Shown piece by piece: positions 6,626 to 19,776 of a stretch of DNA of 37,880 bases (the first letter of the stretch is position 1; each line of letters opens with the position of its first letter). The stretch is from Endomicrobium sp. (GTDB lineage Bacteria; Elusimicrobiota; Endomicrobiia; Endomicrobiales; Endomicrobiaceae), in contig JAISWG010000005.1 of NCBI GenBank assembly GCA_031271205.1, forward strand, positions 1 through 37,880, written 5' to 3'. The notes below the pieces were generated by a model. It saw only the letters and a list, made by a program, of their open reading frames with translations. It was not told the origin of the DNA and did no database searches. A program made the translations under genes and the position numbers.

Positions 6626-7885
6626 ATGAGAGAGATGAAAGATAATACAAAGAAAACTTTAAATTGCTTGATGCTTGACTTCTGATAGTGTATGTAAAAC
6701 ATAAAACGTTTTTGTGCCTATAAGCTTTTTTTTGGTCAACCACTTTTCCTATATCTATATATAATATAAATTCACGAAAACCATTCGATATATTATCCTA
6801 TTTTAATAACAACGACAATAAAACAATGGTATTATGGGATTTATACTATCAAGCTTTTAAAAATTCATTCTTTTTAAACTCATTATTAAAATTTGTGCTA
6901 GCATTTTAAAATAATAAATCGATTTATATATTTCAAATGTTTGAAATGCTCTTTTAAACAAGAGACGTATTGTCAGTATTTAAAGTTAAAATTTAACTAA
7001 AAAGAAAATATTTTGCAGAAAATTATACAATTAACAATTATAATGGAAAAGTTTGTTTTAATAGGGACGGAAAACTCAGTTCAAACTTTTTTGAAGTGCA
7101 AAAGTTGTTTCATTAATAAAAATATAGATAATTTGATATTAAAAAGGTTATGATTTCAATTATATATCGATTTTTCTGTTAAATCAATAAATAGAACATT
7201 TCTCTTTACGTATATATAGAGCTCAATGTTTCGTTTATTTTTTTCATATTTATTAGGATTTGATGGTATTTGAAACAATTATCTGATCAAAATCAATAAT
7301 ATTTTTTTCTTTCTATAATTTCCAAATTTTGATAATTTACAAAAATAATTTTACGTGAATAAAGTTTAGAGTTTTTGTATTTCTTAAATAATCTAACATA
7401 AAGTTAGTATATTATTTAATAATAGTTTGCATTTTCTGTATTTTTGAATAACAATCTATTTTAAGCTTCATCTTTTTAAGATCTGAGATTTATAGGTTTT
7501 GAACGGAAACACCAATCTTTATTATTACTAAGTTTTTTTGAGCCAATCAAATAAAATGTATAGCTCTATTTATATTTTATCTTATTCTGTTACTGGTCTA
7601 TATTATATGTGGGCTTATGCACAGTTCAGTTCTTAAATTTACATTTAACAATATTTAACAAGTTACTCTTTGAAATAAATTTATTAAACAAAGATGATGG
7701 TCTTTTGTTTTTTTTGCATACAATTGGTTTAAAAAGCCAATCTTGACTTTGAAACATAATTACAAATTCAATAGTTTAGTTTAACATATATTTCTACGGA
7801 ATTTCTCAATTAATAATTCGTCTGTATAGGTATTATATATTGCTGTTTTTAATGAAAATAATCAAAAATTTCATATTATAAAAAA

Positions 7886-7959
7886 CTGCCCGACCTGGAC
7901 TCGAACCAGGAAACTCCTGCTCCAGAGGCAGACGTGTTACCAAATTACACCATCGGGCA
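7886..7959 (-). tRNA. tRNA-Gln (anticodon CTG)
   Basis: A full cloverleaf on the minus strand: acceptor TGCCCGA/TCGGGCA, D arm GTGT...ACAC, anticodon stem TCTGC/GCAGG around the loop CTCTGGA giving anticodon CTG, T arm CCTGG-TTCGAGT-CCAGG, discriminator G as expected for tRNA-Gln. CCA is not encoded. Six T residues follow immediately and can act as terminator. Confidence 0.93.
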
Positions 7960-8200
7960 ATCAACCGATTATCTGGAATCGTTATTGTAGCAGAAAATTA
8001 AAAATATCCAAAATTTGTATTTTGATTTTTATTTTTTTTACTTCTTATACCTTAACCTTTAACTAGCTTTTTGAACTAAAATATTTGTTGAATATTTACT
8101 GTCTATTGTTTATCATCATAAAAGGTGTATACGAGACAGATAATAGTATTTAATTATAACAGCCAATAATAATGAGAATGCAAAGCTATAAAAAAAGAAA

Positions 8201-8610
8201 ATGGAAGTAAAAGCTAGAACTGGAAAAACAATACTGACAGAGAATCTAAAGAGTCAAATTGTTATAGAGAAAGATAGGATTGTGTACAATGAAAGAATGG
8301 AAAATGAGATAAGTAAAAGGAAAGACGACACATATTTGTCTTTAAGGAAAAACAGAAAATAATACAAAATAATAACGATTAAAAGGCAAAATAGTGATGA
8401 TAAAATAAAAAGAGCAGAAGGCTATATAATTTATTAAGTCATACATTTTTGGGATAACAGGATATATAGAAAAATTAAAAATATGATTAGTAAACAAGAA
8501 AATAGTGTGCATATTTAATGGTGTTATGGACCTTTGAGTGCTTGGGTTAATATTAATTGGGACAGGGAATAATATATAATATTAGTTCGTTTATTGTTTT
8601 AGAACAGAAA
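8201..8610 (+). pseudogene. Possible LptF/LptG (YjgP/YjgQ) permease remnant
   Basis: The frame at 8201-8362 reads VKARTGKTILTENLKSQIVI and then RIVYNE...DDTYLSL. This is reminiscent of the periplasmic jelly-roll region of LptF, where a 'kA..G.i.te..ks.iv.LkDG.iy' pattern precedes an F-D-T-Y segment. Downstream, in shifted frames, are hydrophobic pieces (VLGLILIGTGNN, GPLSAWVNIN) as expected for the C-terminal membrane helices. LptF/G extract LPS from the inner membrane. The evidence is pattern memory only. Confidence 0.28.
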
Positions 8611-14150: not shown

Positions 14151-16322
14151 AACGTATGTCATCTCAGCGTATGAAACAGTGTTTTAATGTTTGTTTTTTG
14201 AAAGTTTGTTTTAATTGATGTTTGTAATATAGACATAAATTATCGTATTTTTTATCTTTAAATAAATAATCATAACTTATTTTTTATTAAGAGACTGTGT
14301 GTAATTCATAGTTTTTTTGGAATAAATCTATGTTTTTGATTTACAGATATAGTTTTTTTATTAAAACTGATATCTTAAACTTATAAATTTTTAAACACTT
14401 CAGACAATCTAAAACCATTGTATATAGAAAACCCACATTATTACTTAGAAATCTGACAGTTTTTTTAGCTTCTTGCCTTAAACACAAAAAAAATAAAAAA
14501 GTGTTTGTCTTAGCGTGTGAAATTAGAGAGACTTGATAAGAAACGTTATTAGATGGAATGAAAAATATTTTTGAGTGGAACGAAAGAAGATGTAAAAATC
14601 TAATTGATGAATTGGATTTGTTAGAATTTTAAGTGTTTGTAAAAAAGAAAGAGTTAAATTAACAAAAATATTGGTAAAAAAACAAGAAATAATTTTTCTT
14701 CTATTGAATACAAAAAGTAAAATATCTCTGCTACTATAAAAATGTTAAAAAGTGTTTCATATGATCAATTTTTTCAAAAGGTTTCTGGGGGGTGTAGACT
14801 TAATTTTTAGCGGAATATTGTCATTAGAAGAATAAACAGAAGTATTAAATGTTTGTATTACAAATTTAGATGAAAGTAAAGTTAATATTTTCAATATATT
14901 TTTGAAATTATTAGTAATATATAAATGAGCAAGTTCCAAATGTTTTACAAATAATATGATGGCCTACTAAGGCCAGGACAATATATAAAATAATTTTTTG
15001 GAAAAAATTCATGGAACTTATAAACTTTCCAATAAAAACCTGAGTTTATATTATTTTTTAATGTCTGTTCATTCTTACTGGAATTATTTTATTGATATTT
15101 TTTGTTACGAAGAATTAATCATAAAATTATTTTCTGTTTATAATTATATATATTCGTATTTTCATCTTTTGTATCTTCTATTATAGTTTTTATACAGTTT
15201 ATCTGGGTGTTGATATCAAATAAAGTTGAATATTTTGTAACAAAATCAAATAAGATTGTGTTAAATCTGTTGATGGATTGGAAAAACTAGAATCTATTAA
15301 CTAGAATAATATCTAGTTGTAATATGCAGTTTTAAATTTTCGAAAAACAGTAATGACACCAATAACTAGAGATGTACAATAAGATATTTTTTTCTGTAAG
15401 ATATGCTATATCTTAGGGGTATAAAAGATTCAATAGTAATGAATACTGACTTAATAAAAATTCTCTTTTTTGTTATTTGATTTAAAATCGGATGTAATGA
15501 ATCTTTAAAATTCATAGTTTTATAAATGATGTTGATAAAATAGATTTAGAAAAAATTGAAGGAATTACTGAAGCCCATATTATTTGATGGTATGAAAAGG
15601 AAATGCATGTTAATTGTGTAGATAAAAACTTAAAGAGAGTGGATTTTTAGTGCTTTTTATCATTTATAAAGAATCGGAGAAGGTAAATGAAAAATGTAAA
15701 AAATTATGAAGATTCCTCGTGTGTTGAAATTATGGGTGATTTTTCATCTATTGTAAGAAAGAGTATATTGGCGATGACAGGAATAATATTTTTTGAATAA
15801 ATATTCCTTACAACAATGATTACTTATTTTTTTCTTAGGTAGTCGGGTGTTTAATATTTATTATTTTTCTAACGTCACCAAAAAAGTTTATGATTATGCG
15901 TATCTATTTTATGTATATTTTTGATTTAGTTTAAATTTAATTACATTGATGGTGTTTTATATTGAAATAGATTTTAATAGATGGCGTTGTAAAAAAAAAG
16001 ATATGGATGGCATGTTTGTGAGTGCGTGATAGTTATATCGTATATTTTTTTCTATTTTTTCACTTTTATAGTTCTCTCAAATCTATATGAATCTACGCCT
16101 ATTTTTTGTCAACTATGACCTTTATTCTTTTTAGTAAATAAAGAATAGTGTTTTTAATTATTGTTTTGTTATTTTCTGAAATTTTTGAATATATTTGCTC
16201 TTTTAGATGCGACTGTATTGCTAAGAACAGAAAAGACTGGTTGGTTAATTGTTCTGATGAACAGCTTATAGTTTTGTGGCAAAAAATATAGTGTTTGAAA
16301 TTAGCTTATATTGAAAACTTTT

Positions 16323-16331
16323 TGATATAAT
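16323..16331 (+). promoter_or_regulatory. Extended -10 just upstream of the secreted-protein gene
   Basis: TG-A-TATAAT at 16323-16331. The start codon at 16343 is only 12 bases further, so transcription from here would give an almost leaderless mRNA. The AGGT at 16334-16337 could instead be the ribosome binding site of a transcript begun further upstream. Confidence 0.35.
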
Positions 16332-16342
16332 GCAGGTTTGTT

Positions 16343-17929
16343 ATGAACATAAAGAGGATTTTTTTTATAGGAATACTTTTGTTTTTAAGCCTAACTTCTT
16401 TTAGTGCTGAAATCAGGTATATAGTTTTTTTTGCTGAGACATCAGACATATTAAATGCAGTAATAGATAAAATAACTTTATCCAATCGTTTTTGTATGGT
16501 TGTTCCTCAGGATTCCAAAGCAATAATTCCTGAAAATTTAGAAAAGCTTGTTTCAGTTGGAAAAATTGAGCTTGCGCTTTCTCTTGATCCTGAGCCTATT
16601 TTGCCTGTTCTTGCAGAAATTTCAAACGCAAATTTAAGGAAAAAATATAACAAAAATGGTATTTTTGAAAACTATATTTCAGATAATTTATCGTTATTCG
16701 TAAATAGCAGCAACAAAGAAAATTTTGGAATATTTTTGAATTCAGCGAAAATGTCCCATGAGCTTCTTTATTACTTTTCAGATTTGGGTTTGTCTTGGGT
16801 TAATGTTGATAATATAGAAGGAAACGTTTGTGGTGCATATTACATTGATGGTATTGCTGTTTTTTCTTTGTATAAAAGTTTTCCTTACAGTCAGCAAGAG
16901 ATTATTAAGTGGCTTGAGTCAAAACACGAAAATGTAGTTCCTGTTTTGCTTACAAAAAAACACTTGCAAACCATTCAATTTATGGAATATATAATAAAAC
17001 TTTTTGACGCTAGTAAGCATATAAAACCTACTACACCTTTACATATTATCAAACTTAAAAGCAATATGTTGCAGCAAAAACATATATTGTTTGAAAAAGT
17101 CACTTTAAATCCTACCATTGGTGAAAAACTTCAATTAGTTGCTCAGCATCTTAGTAATTATATGAATTCTTACTCTTTTAGTGAAACAATATATTCAAAT
17201 GCTCAAAACGAGCTTGTTTATTTGTGTGGACAAGATGTATTAAGAAGTATGTCTTTGGATAGCATTTCTGGAAAAAAAATGTTTGATGCAGCATATAATA
17301 ATATTTATCATCTTTTGGGTTTGCAAACGAAAGACTTATATGATGACAAAAATATTGATAAGCAGACATTGCCAAGTGTTTATGTGCAAAAAGCAACAAA
17401 TCTTTCAGTTGGACAAACTTCTATTGAAATTATTTCCGGAGGAGTTTCAATATACAATAAAGGTTTGTTAAGACTTGTTCAGATTACGTCAAAAGATAAT
17501 GTGATAAAAATAGACTTGGCTTTTAATATAGCGGGTTGGGATGAAGAAGTTTTGTTTGTAGATTTTTATATAGACTTAAACGGTATTTCAGGAATGGGTA
17601 GTTCTTCTTTTATATATGGAGTGAGCGGATTTTTAGTTGCGGACTCAGGATGGGAATATGCGTTGAGAATATATAGAGATAAAGCAATTTTGTATAAATA
17701 TTCTGTTGACGGAGCGTCAATTATTTCTAATCTTGCTGTAAGCGATAATTCAGTGTATATACCAGCCAAATATGTTAGGGGAAATCCTGCAAAGTGGGGA
17801 TTTCAAGCTATAGTTGTATCTGAAAATATGGGTGAAAAAACCATAGTTGATTTTTTAAATCAAACTTCCAAAACCAAATATGAAATACTTTCTTTAAACC
17901 CCTTTCAAGTACCTTTTGTAAGGTGTTGA
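16343..17929 (+). CDS. Secreted protein of unknown function with a glucodextranase-C-like end
   Basis: An intact 528-residue protein beginning with a signal peptide (KRIFFIGILLFLSLTSFSA, cleavage likely after residue 22). Residues about 73-92 (GKIELALSLDPEPILPVLAE) recall the 'L-S-L-x-P-x-L' segment near the start of GH57-type glycoside hydrolase domains, but I cannot identify catalytic residues. The last ~155 residues are beta-rich (VLFVDFYIDLNGISGMGSSS, then SGWEYALRIYRD and WGFQAIVVSENMG). They resemble the DOMON-like C-terminal module of glucodextranases and other secreted GH57-linked proteins. It is likely periplasmic or surface-exposed. It stands alone: a desert before it, and the rpsF promoter about 85 bases after it. 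Function is unassigned; the family hints are from remembered patterns. Confidence 0.7.
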   Translation: MNIKRIFFIGILLFLSLTSFSAEIRYIVFFAETSDILNAVIDKITLSNRFCMVVPQDSKAIIPENLEKLVSVGKIELALSLDPEPILPVLAEISNANLRKKYNKNGIFENYISDNLSLFVNSSNKENFGIFLNSAKMSHELLYYFSDLGLSWVNVDNIEGNVCGAYYIDGIAVFSLYKSFPYSQQEIIKWLESKHENVVPVLLTKKHLQTIQFMEYIIKLFDASKHIKPTTPLHIIKLKSNMLQQKHILFEKVTLNPTIGEKLQLVAQHLSNYMNSYSFSETIYSNAQNELVYLCGQDVLRSMSLDSISGKKMFDAAYNNIYHLLGLQTKDLYDDKNIDKQTLPSVYVQKATNLSVGQTSIEIISGGVSIYNKGLLRLVQITSKDNVIKIDLAFNIAGWDEEVLFVDFYIDLNGISGMGSSSFIYGVSGFLVADSGWEYALRIYRDKAILYKYSVDGASIISNLAVSDNSVYIPAKYVRGNPAKWGFQAIVVSENMGEKTIVDFLNQTSKTKYEILSLNPFQVPFVRC

Positions 17930-18128: not shown

Positions 18129-18440
18129 ATGGATTACGAAAGCACGTTTATCGTTTCCCCTGAACTTCATGTTGACAAAATAGAAGAACTCATTGAAAAA
18201 GTAATAAAAGCAATTGAAGTGGCAAAAGGAACAGTTAAAACAGTTCAACAGCTTGGCAAAAAGAAACTTGCTTATCCTATTAATAAATTTCGCGAGGGAA
18301 GTTATGTTTATATGGAGTTTAGCGGAGATGGTTTTATAGTTGGTTCACTTGAAAATTTTTTTAAATTTAATGATTCAATAATAAGATTTCTTACTGTTAA
18401 AATTAAGAAGAAAAAAAAATTTGAAAAATCTGTCGTGTAA
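18129..18440 (+). CDS. rpsF: 30S ribosomal protein S6
   Basis: 103 residues with the S6 ferredoxin-like fold: MDYESTFIVSPEL at the start, GKKKLAYPINKFREGSYVYM in the middle, and the FNDSIIRFLTVKI end. S6 pairs with S18 on the 30S platform. The gene is first in the rpsF-ssb-rpsR-rplI cluster, the order common to many bacteria. AAAGGAGGT at 18113-18121 fixes this ATG; the ATG at 18122 is out of frame. Confidence 0.95.
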   Translation: MDYESTFIVSPELHVDKIEELIEKVIKAIEVAKGTVKTVQQLGKKKLAYPINKFREGSYVYMEFSGDGFIVGSLENFFKFNDSIIRFLTVKIKKKKKFEKSVV

Positions 18441-18484
18441 TCTGAACATATTGTTGTATAAATTTTGGTTATGGGGTGAAAAGA

Positions 18485-18955
18485 ATGACGCAGCAAAATA
18501 GTATTCGCCTACCTGAGCAAAACAGTGTTATTATGGTTGGTAGACTTACCAGGGATCCAGAATTGAGGCGTACTGGGTCAGGTAAGGCTGTTTGTTCATT
18601 TGACATAGCTATAAGTAGAAGAATCAAAGACTCTGTCACAGGTGAGTGGAAAAATACTGACCCGACATTTGTTCCAGTTATTGTTTGGGGAGAAAAAGCC
18701 GAAAGGTGTGGCGAGCGTTTGAAAAAGGGATTACCTGTGCATATTGAAGGTAGGCTTCAGACCAACAAATGGGAAGGAAATGATGGAATCAAAAGAAGTC
18801 GTTTGGAGGTTGTGGTCTCTAGGGTTCAAATTCTTTCTGTGATAGTAAGACAGGATAATGTTGCTGTAGGCGTAGAACCTGCGCATAGTATTAACACGTC
18901 ATCCGATCAATATGATAGTATTGACGAAGATAGTGGTGAAGATATACCGTTTTAA
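18485..18955 (+). CDS. ssb: Single-stranded DNA-binding protein
   Basis: 156 residues. OB-fold at 10-105: [38 protein letters not shown] and the basic [18 protein letters not shown] short linker leads to the acidic C-terminal tip [10 protein letters not shown] that recruits replication and repair partners. The start chosen is ATG 18485, preceded by a GGGG ribosome binding site; an in-frame GTG at 18476 would add three residues (M-K-R). It lies between rpsF and rpsR, as in many bacteria. Confidence 0.94.
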
Positions 18956-18971
18956 ACAGTTGGAGGAAAAT

Positions 18972-19283
18972 ATGGTATTTATACAACAAAAATCTACAGG
19001 GCAGTCTAGACCTCGGGTAGCGCAGACGGAAGGTCAGGGAGGGGGATATCTAGGAGGAAGATTTAAAAAAGGTGGACATATCAGAAGAAAAGTTTGCCGT
19101 TTTTGTGCTGATAAAATGGAAATAGATTATAAAAATATAAATCTGTTGCGCACGTTTGTAACTGAAAAAGGAAAAATTCTTTCAGGACGTATAACTGGTA
19201 CGTGTACTAAGCATCAGAGGAAGCTTGGCATGGTTATTAAAAGAGCAAGAATGCTTGCCATTTTGCCTTTTGTGTCAAACTAA
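18972..19283 (+). CDS. rpsR: 30S ribosomal protein S18 (zinc-binding form)
   Basis: 103 residues, somewhat longer than the usual 75-90 because of a Gly/Gln-rich N-terminus. The core reads [20 protein letters not shown] and later [21 protein letters not shown]42, C45, C78 and H81 form the zinc-ribbon set of the C+ type of S18. TGGAGG at 18961-18966 fixes the ATG at 18972. It is 16 bases after ssb. Confidence 0.95.
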
Positions 19284-19326
19284 TTTTTACATTGAAATGG
19301 ATTTAGATAAGTTTCGGAGAAAAAAA

Positions 19327-19776
19327 ATGAAAGTTATATTAATATCCGATGTTATTAATGTCGGGCATCAGGGTGAGGTTAAAGAAGTCTCGTCTGGATT
19401 TGCTAGGAACTATCTTGTTCCGCAAAATTTGGCTATGGAGGCTACTCTTGCAAATCTTAAAATTTGGGAAAGAGAGAAGTTGAAATTTGAGAAACAAAGA
19501 GAAGAAATAATTTTAGCAGCAAAGGAAATTGCTTTCAAGATGGAGGCAGTTGAGTTTATTGTTAAAGTTAAAAAAGGTGAAAATGGCAAGATTTTTGGTT
19601 CTGTAACGTCTGCGAATCTTTCAAAAATTTTTAAAGAAAAGGGTTTTGAAATCGATAAACGTGATATTTTTCTTTCCGATAGTATAAAAGAGGTAGGGTG
19701 TTATGAAGTAAATGTTAGGCTTCATCCTAAAGTTGTGGTGAAAGTAAGACTTGTTGTAATAGGTGAAAAAGAGTAA
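19327..19776 (+). CDS. rplI: 50S ribosomal protein L9
   Basis: 149 residues, the normal size. The N-terminal RNA-binding domain has VINVGHQGEVKEVSSGFARN and YLVP. A long connecting helix and the C-terminal domain follow (KIFGSVTSANLSKIFKEKGF). A CGGAG precedes ATG 19327. It is the last ribosomal gene of the cluster. Confidence 0.95.
   Translation: MKVILISDVINVGHQGEVKEVSSGFARNYLVPQNLAMEATLANLKIWEREKLKFEKQREEIILAAKEIAFKMEAVEFIVKVKKGENGKIFGSVTSANLSKIFKEKGFEIDKRDIFLSDSIKEVGCYEVNVRLHPKVVVKVRLVVIGEKE

Follow-up and report, generated by a model that had tools for sequence, protein, structure and literature searches.

A conserved, apparently exported protein of Endomicrobium that combines a GH57-like barrel lacking the catalytic residues with a glucodextranase C-type module

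Results

An intact gene between decayed pump genes and a ribosomal operon

The window analysed here, a stretch of 37,880 nucleotides, belongs to the Endomicrobium (Elusimicrobiota) genome G000, which comprises 610 kb in 29 contigs and is 53.5% complete. At 16343-17929 on the forward strand it carries a single intact frame of 528 codons running from ATG to TGA, and both the frame and the coordinates agree with the original prediction; given the stop-triplet density of the region upstream, the chance of such a frame staying open is about 6e-21. On the basis of the open reading frame, the family alignment and profile comparisons, the product (P0001, 528 residues) appears to be a GH57-like but catalytically dead protein, which begins with a stretch resembling a signal peptide and ends in a glucodextranase C-type module. 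Its first 22 residues (16343-16408, forward strand), judged by sequence and hydropathy and with an estimated boundary, make up a putative Sec-type signal peptide without a lipobox. The proposal that the protein is secreted is supported by this N-terminus, where, by hydropathy only, a basic start is followed by a hydrophobic stretch typical of Sec signal peptides. Of 49 family sequences, 47 have a strongly hydrophobic stretch near the N-terminus, the exceptions being a fragment (L118) and a sequence whose start was probably set too late (L111), and the lipobox pattern occurs in two of the 49. We infer that the protein is exported to the periplasm.

The region upstream had been described as dead DNA, and indeed no open reading frame of 100 amino acids is present between the end of a tRNA-Pro gene (13843) and the gene. 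Part of this interval can be explained by the decay of two genes. Remains of an RND (AcrB-type) pump gene, spread over three frames, lie at 15191-15969 on the forward strand, as recognized by tblastn with the intact 1107-residue relative from the sister genome L112 and by the Pfam model ACR_tran. Remains of the gene preceding the pump lie at 14549-14659 on the same strand (tblastn, 38 residues, 68% identical); its relative in L112 encodes 377 residues and is perhaps a membrane-fusion subunit, a name given from its position only. Both genes are intact in L112, where they sit between a DUF4015 gene and the relative of the window gene.

A TATAAT box at 16326-16331 (forward strand, within TGATATAAT) resembles an extended -10 element and ends 11 nt before the ATG. 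It is conserved in this protein family: of its 14 Endomicrobium genes, 11 have a TATAAT at a distance of 8-12 nt from the start codon, one of the 14 starts (L005) being placed at the second ATG, versus seven of 95 control ORFs (4-16 nt allowed); the Fisher value of 2e-8 is too small, the 14 genes being related. The box suggests a private promoter and, because it leaves no room for a usual leader, an almost leaderless mRNA. Downstream, the ribosomal operon that had been noted is present in the order rpsF-ssb-rpsR-rplI-dnaB, the first four genes occupying 18129-19776 on the forward strand (names from reading of the translations).

Relatives across the phylum and loss in small symbiont genomes

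The description of the gene as an orphan does not hold, as relatives exist across the genus, the order and other classes of the phylum. Identity to the window protein is 47-82% within the genus and 21-27% in the searched genomes from other families of the order, all seven of which have full-length relatives (23-27% in the single-sequence search, 21-24% for the six included in the multiple alignment); with the single window sequence as query, relatives were found in 21 of 40 genomes. The named relatives found are those of Candidatus Endomicrobiellum devescovinae Gsp477_bin38 (82% identical) and Endomicrobium sp. Ncb351_bin50 (78%). A profile of the 20-member family alignment A1, which leaves out a cut-off copy (L013) and a broken one (L014), matches 149 of 247 phylum genomes, a count that overstates the family because some of the weak matches are GH57 enzymes. 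Five genomes from other orders of the class gave only weak matches (E 1e-7 to 1e-9), and the one inspected, G032, proved to be the GH57 enzyme L070. Clear, nearly full-length relatives in other classes include L085 and L091, and split matches were seen in L084 and L072. Viral contigs contained no relative of the window protein (88 pattern stretches).

Within the genus, the presence of the gene follows genome size. It was matched in all 20 genomes of at least 1.0 Mb and in six of 21 smaller ones, and the corresponding figures for genomes at least 75% complete are 20 of 20 and two of 12; the 26 positives include a weak match (G021, 5e-7), a C-terminal half at a contig end (G022) and a broken gene (G017). 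In the last of these (L118, at about 7568-8519), the gene lies in pieces in two frames with stops. One of the genomes that carry the gene, G061, may be that of the free-living isolate Endomicrobium proavitum; its copy (L093:8064-9605) encodes 513 residues. As most small symbiont genomes have no match, the gene is dispensable when genomes are strongly reduced, and an essential function at the host interface is therefore disfavoured. A host-interface function, as first suggested, also fits poorly with the presence of the family in other classes and, if G061 is that isolate, in a free-living bacterium.

Two parts traced through relatives to GH57 and glucodextranase modules

Three regions follow the signal-like start: a shortened GH57-like barrel (residues 23-250, 16409-17092), a helical region (residues 251-332, 17093-17338) and a glucodextranase C-type module (residues 361-528, 17423-17926), all on the forward strand. 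The barrel is delimited by an hhalign match to GH57 from residue 64 onwards and by matches of relatives to PF03065, the helical region by profile comparisons, and the module by alignment and profile comparisons; the boundaries of the first two are approximate. Thirteen of the 18 invariant columns of A1 fall in the C-terminal module.

The GH57 and glucodextranase assignments rest on relatives, because the window protein alone matched no Pfam or NCBIfam model at E values up to 10 and A1 matched neither a solved GH57 nor a solved glucodextranase structure in a PDB search. Among the 20 members of A1, three match GH57 in Pfam (best 8.6e-5) and five match Glucodextran_C (PF09985) at E values up to 10 (best 0.0053). 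In a comparison of ten phylum proteins, the curated Pfam cut-offs for GH57 and Glucodextran_C were both passed by L085 (90.5 and 33 bits), L084 (30.2 and 92.8) and L075 (45.4 and 29.2), and that for Glucodextran_C only by L072, L091, L073 and L088; L086 lay above the Glucodextran_C cut-off and below that for GH57, L080 was below cut-off and L016 had no match. Profile-profile comparison by hhalign aligned A1 with 11 GH57 enzymes of the phylum at E 1.7e-11 over residues 64-332 of the window protein, that is, over the barrel and helical region, and with seven phylum relatives at E 7.8e-52 over almost the full length, while a negative control with HtrA gave E 0.24. A profile of the phylum relatives (A4) in turn matches solved GH57 chains (E 1.9e-10) and residues 779-937 of the glucodextranase PDB 1ug9 (E 3e-9). 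By these sequence comparisons, the barrel and helical region share common descent with GH57, and the GH57-like N-terminus and the glucodextranase-like C-terminus of the original prediction are both borne out through relatives.

Its further suggestion of a DOMON fold was rejected, since none of the 20 sequences in A1 matched a DOMON model, and none of the 20 matched polysaccharide deacetylase (NodB). Matches of single members to the NCBIfam models DltD and MtgC, and PDB matches of the single window sequence and of A1, were judged to be due to chance. AlphaFold models built from three similar sequences, with a pLDDT of 33 for the whole protein and 47 for the C-terminal module, were too poor for fold comparison, including that of the whole protein with the (beta/alpha)7 barrel of GH57.

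Loss of the GH57 catalytic residues throughout the family

In GH57 enzymes, the nucleophile is a Glu and the proton donor an Asp, both carried by an incomplete barrel (PMC6037648). For the enzymes of this phylum, we took the catalytic pair to be Glu275 and Asp397 of L070, which are invariant in the GH57 alignment A3 and whose roles are assigned from motifs. At the nucleophile position, in strand beta4, the window protein has Ser134 (16742-16744, forward strand), as placed by hhalign and by a 49-sequence alignment that includes the window protein and has one gene (G026) twice. None of the 47 sequences scorable at this column, two being gapped, has Glu, and two have Asp. The donor position, in strand beta7, is occupied by Thr204 (16952-16954, forward strand); this loss is read from one hhalign alignment, because MAFFT left gaps in that column. 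Of the five conserved sequence regions of GH57, only the stretches around YHPILPL and WPAEG align clearly, and nothing corresponding to HQHQP is seen among the 49 aligned sequences. Moreover, where the phylum's GH57 enzymes have the invariant His-Pro of YHPILPL, alignments place Glu84-Pro85 in the window protein (16592-16597, forward strand). This pair is invariant in A1, and Glu replaces the His in 40 of the 49 family sequences (one gap).

Since no scorable member keeps the nucleophile Glu, the whole family looks dead in the GH57 sense, and GH57-type catalysis appears to have been lost throughout and not in the symbiont alone. The earlier remarks that no catalytic residues are evident and that the protein may be a degenerate enzyme are thus supported by the profile comparisons together with the missing GH57 residues.

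Gene neighbourhood inside and outside the family of the window

We compared 40 loci, 20 from the bacterial family to which the window belongs and 20 from outside it, with domains read from one or two members per cluster. Within that family, a gene for a putative glycosyl hydrolase (DUF4015) lies upstream in 12 of the 20 loci, L112 being the only one of these in which the two genes are not adjacent, and nine loci have a gene for an M23 peptidase nearby. The 20 outside loci have, near the gene, a histidine kinase in 13, HtrA/DegP in 11, a protein with LysM, FecR and Glucodextran_B domains in 10, a response regulator with GGDEF in seven and a small CBM48/AMPK-type protein in six, all of these six in other classes. 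The CBM48 gene overlaps or abuts the relative of the window gene in five of these six, with starts taken mechanically. More broadly, at least 27 of 35 non-Endomicrobia genomes have an AMPK1_CBM match within 2.5 kb of the family gene, each genome being represented by its top-scoring family match and a single CBM match; the 35 include G047 and G083, which hold the family without a CBM match, and G143 and G089, which carry a CBM match of unlisted position and belong to the eight genomes outside the 27. The housekeeping genes tmk, holB, PSP1 and metG are also conserved nearby, and gene order alone is therefore no proof of a shared task.

Three of these partners were not found in the symbiont's own lineage. 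In 35 Endomicrobium genomes, one HtrA query had no hit down to an E value of 0.001, one LysM-FecR query gave none in 35 genomes of the genus, and none of the 93 genomes that match AMPK1_CBM belongs to the window's family, so that the neighbourhood argument does not apply directly to the window. Two 99%-complete genomes, G023 and G055, keep the family gene while no GH57 enzyme was found in them; a link with glycogen metabolism based on GH57 is thereby made less likely.

Some features of the neighbours merit mention in their own right. The small proteins at L122:1452-1922, L109:9285-9764 and L125:833-1297 combine an N-terminal hydrophobic stretch with a CBM48/AMPK-type glycogen-binding domain, and proteins of this type overlap or abut the relative of the window gene in several Elusimicrobiota families outside Endomicrobia. 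The proteins at L103:11282-12931 and L109:2656-4230 and their relatives carry a hydrophobic stretch at the C-terminus in addition to LysM, FecR and Glucodextran_B domains; they occur near a Cache-domain histidine kinase and resemble a sensor module of this phylum that is bound to the wall. That the one HtrA/DegP query matched none of the 35 Endomicrobium genomes is unusual for outer-membrane bacteria.

Discussion

Our analysis starts from four points established at the level of sequence, namely the reading frame, its descent, the loss of the catalytic residues and the gene neighbourhood. The explanation towards which we lean, with some reserve, is that the gene encodes a periplasmic, non-catalytic carbohydrate-binding protein, made of a shortened, dead GH57 barrel and a glucodextranase C-type module, whose most likely task is to hold or detect a polymer of the envelope, one similar or related to alpha-glucan. 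The protein would reach the periplasm by way of its Sec-type start; there it would act as a carbohydrate binder built from the shortened barrel and helical region, with both catalytic residues gone, followed by the beta module of glucodextranase C type. Three features point to an alpha-glucan as ligand: descent from GH57, the module of glucodextranase type and the neighbouring CBM48 gene. Export, periplasmic location, glycan binding and ligand are inferred, and the glycan-binding role in the envelope that was first proposed is plausible. In other classes, the gene mostly adjoins that of a CBM48 (glycogen-recognition) protein with a membrane-anchor-like N-terminus, and genes for HtrA/DegP, for a sensor kinase and for a LysM-FecR protein are often nearby. 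Endomicrobium keeps the protein even though our searches of its genomes found neither HtrA nor the LysM-FecR protein nor an AMPK-type CBM.

The arrangement of parts has parallels among active enzymes. In glucodextranase, the C-terminal module comes after an active catalytic domain, and some GH57 amylopullulanases consist of a GH57 barrel, a helical region and a PF09985-type C-terminal region. The PF09985 module (PDB 1ug9, 1ulv) scores above the Pfam cut-off in phylum relatives and aligns to the window's family over the C-terminus, but here the module comes after a dead GH57-like barrel. The window family shares the order of parts with the amylopullulanases, yet it is much shorter and has neither the catalytic Glu nor the catalytic Asp. 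Descent from GH57 with lost catalytic residues is likewise a feature of sequences described in PMC6037648; that study, however, set aside every sequence in which one of the five conserved regions was missing. In contrast to its set, the present family has unrecognizable HQHQP and donor-Asp stretches, a shortened barrel, a signal-peptide-like start and the glucodextranase C module. Our results add an apparently exported, dead GH57 branch to those described, connect this branch with an envelope-sensing cluster of genes and with a CBM48 protein, and provide a likely function class for a conserved, unannotated and apparently secreted protein found across much of the phylum. Among the results listed in our literature searches, no paper dealt with this protein family, and the passages of PMC8809381 on peptidoglycan synthesis in Endomicrobium have no bearing on it.

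It is tempting to extend this reading, and the extension is speculative and in our judgement unlikely to hold as a whole. Elusimicrobiota may possess a module for envelope surveillance whose glycan receptor, located outside the cytoplasm, arose from an ancient amylase, with the membrane CBM48 protein as co-receptor and with HtrA, a Cache kinase that signals through GGDEF and the wall protein with LysM and FecR as further parts; Endomicrobium endosymbionts would then have kept the receptor without most of the module, now as a structural glycan binder.

The partners recorded near the gene outside the window's family could also be read as its ligands. The protein would then be a sensory or scaffolding subunit of an envelope-stress system that binds proteins (HtrA, the LysM-FecR protein and the kinase) and not a glycan. 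We consider this doubtful: the frequency of those three genes around the 20 outside loci favours it, but the conserved order takes in tmk, holB, PSP1 and metG as well and may in part be ancestral order only, and the gene is retained in a genus in which one query each for HtrA and LysM-FecR found no match in 35 genomes.

Another alternative is that the gene is a relic on its way out in this symbiont, with no remaining function. The loss of matches among the smaller genomes of the genus, the broken copy in G017, which is one of the 20 large genomes, and the rate of evolution of the gene point in this direction. Computed between species and not between strains, dN/dS of the window gene is 0.28 against G091 and 0.22 against G013, compared with 0.06 and 0.06 for dnaB, 0.16 and 0.11 for alr, 0.24 and 0.16 for mlaE, 0.14 and 0.12 for mlaF, and 0.27 and 0.20 for mlaD. 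The gene is therefore constrained yet fast-evolving: its values lie above those of dnaB and alr and near those of mlaD, and they remain well below 1, in line with the initial claim that it is under selection. In addition, the frame is fully open, the C-terminal module is 86% identical to that of the nearest relative, and the promoter-like box has been kept, whereas the adjacent RND pump gene has already been destroyed. A functionless relic is thus improbable.

Similarly improbable is that the protein has remained an enzyme by moving its active site, so that it would now be an altered hydrolase or deacetylase using other conserved acids such as Glu84: the conservation of Glu84-Pro85, the Asp at the nucleophile column in two family sequences and a 438-residue relative that, with 22.3 bits, narrowly misses the polysaccharide deacetylase cut-off of Pfam (23.1 bits) speak for it, but both GH57 catalytic positions have been lost, a deacetylase-type metal triad is absent, as no His is found among the invariant or near-invariant columns of A1, and conservation is strongest in the C-terminal module.
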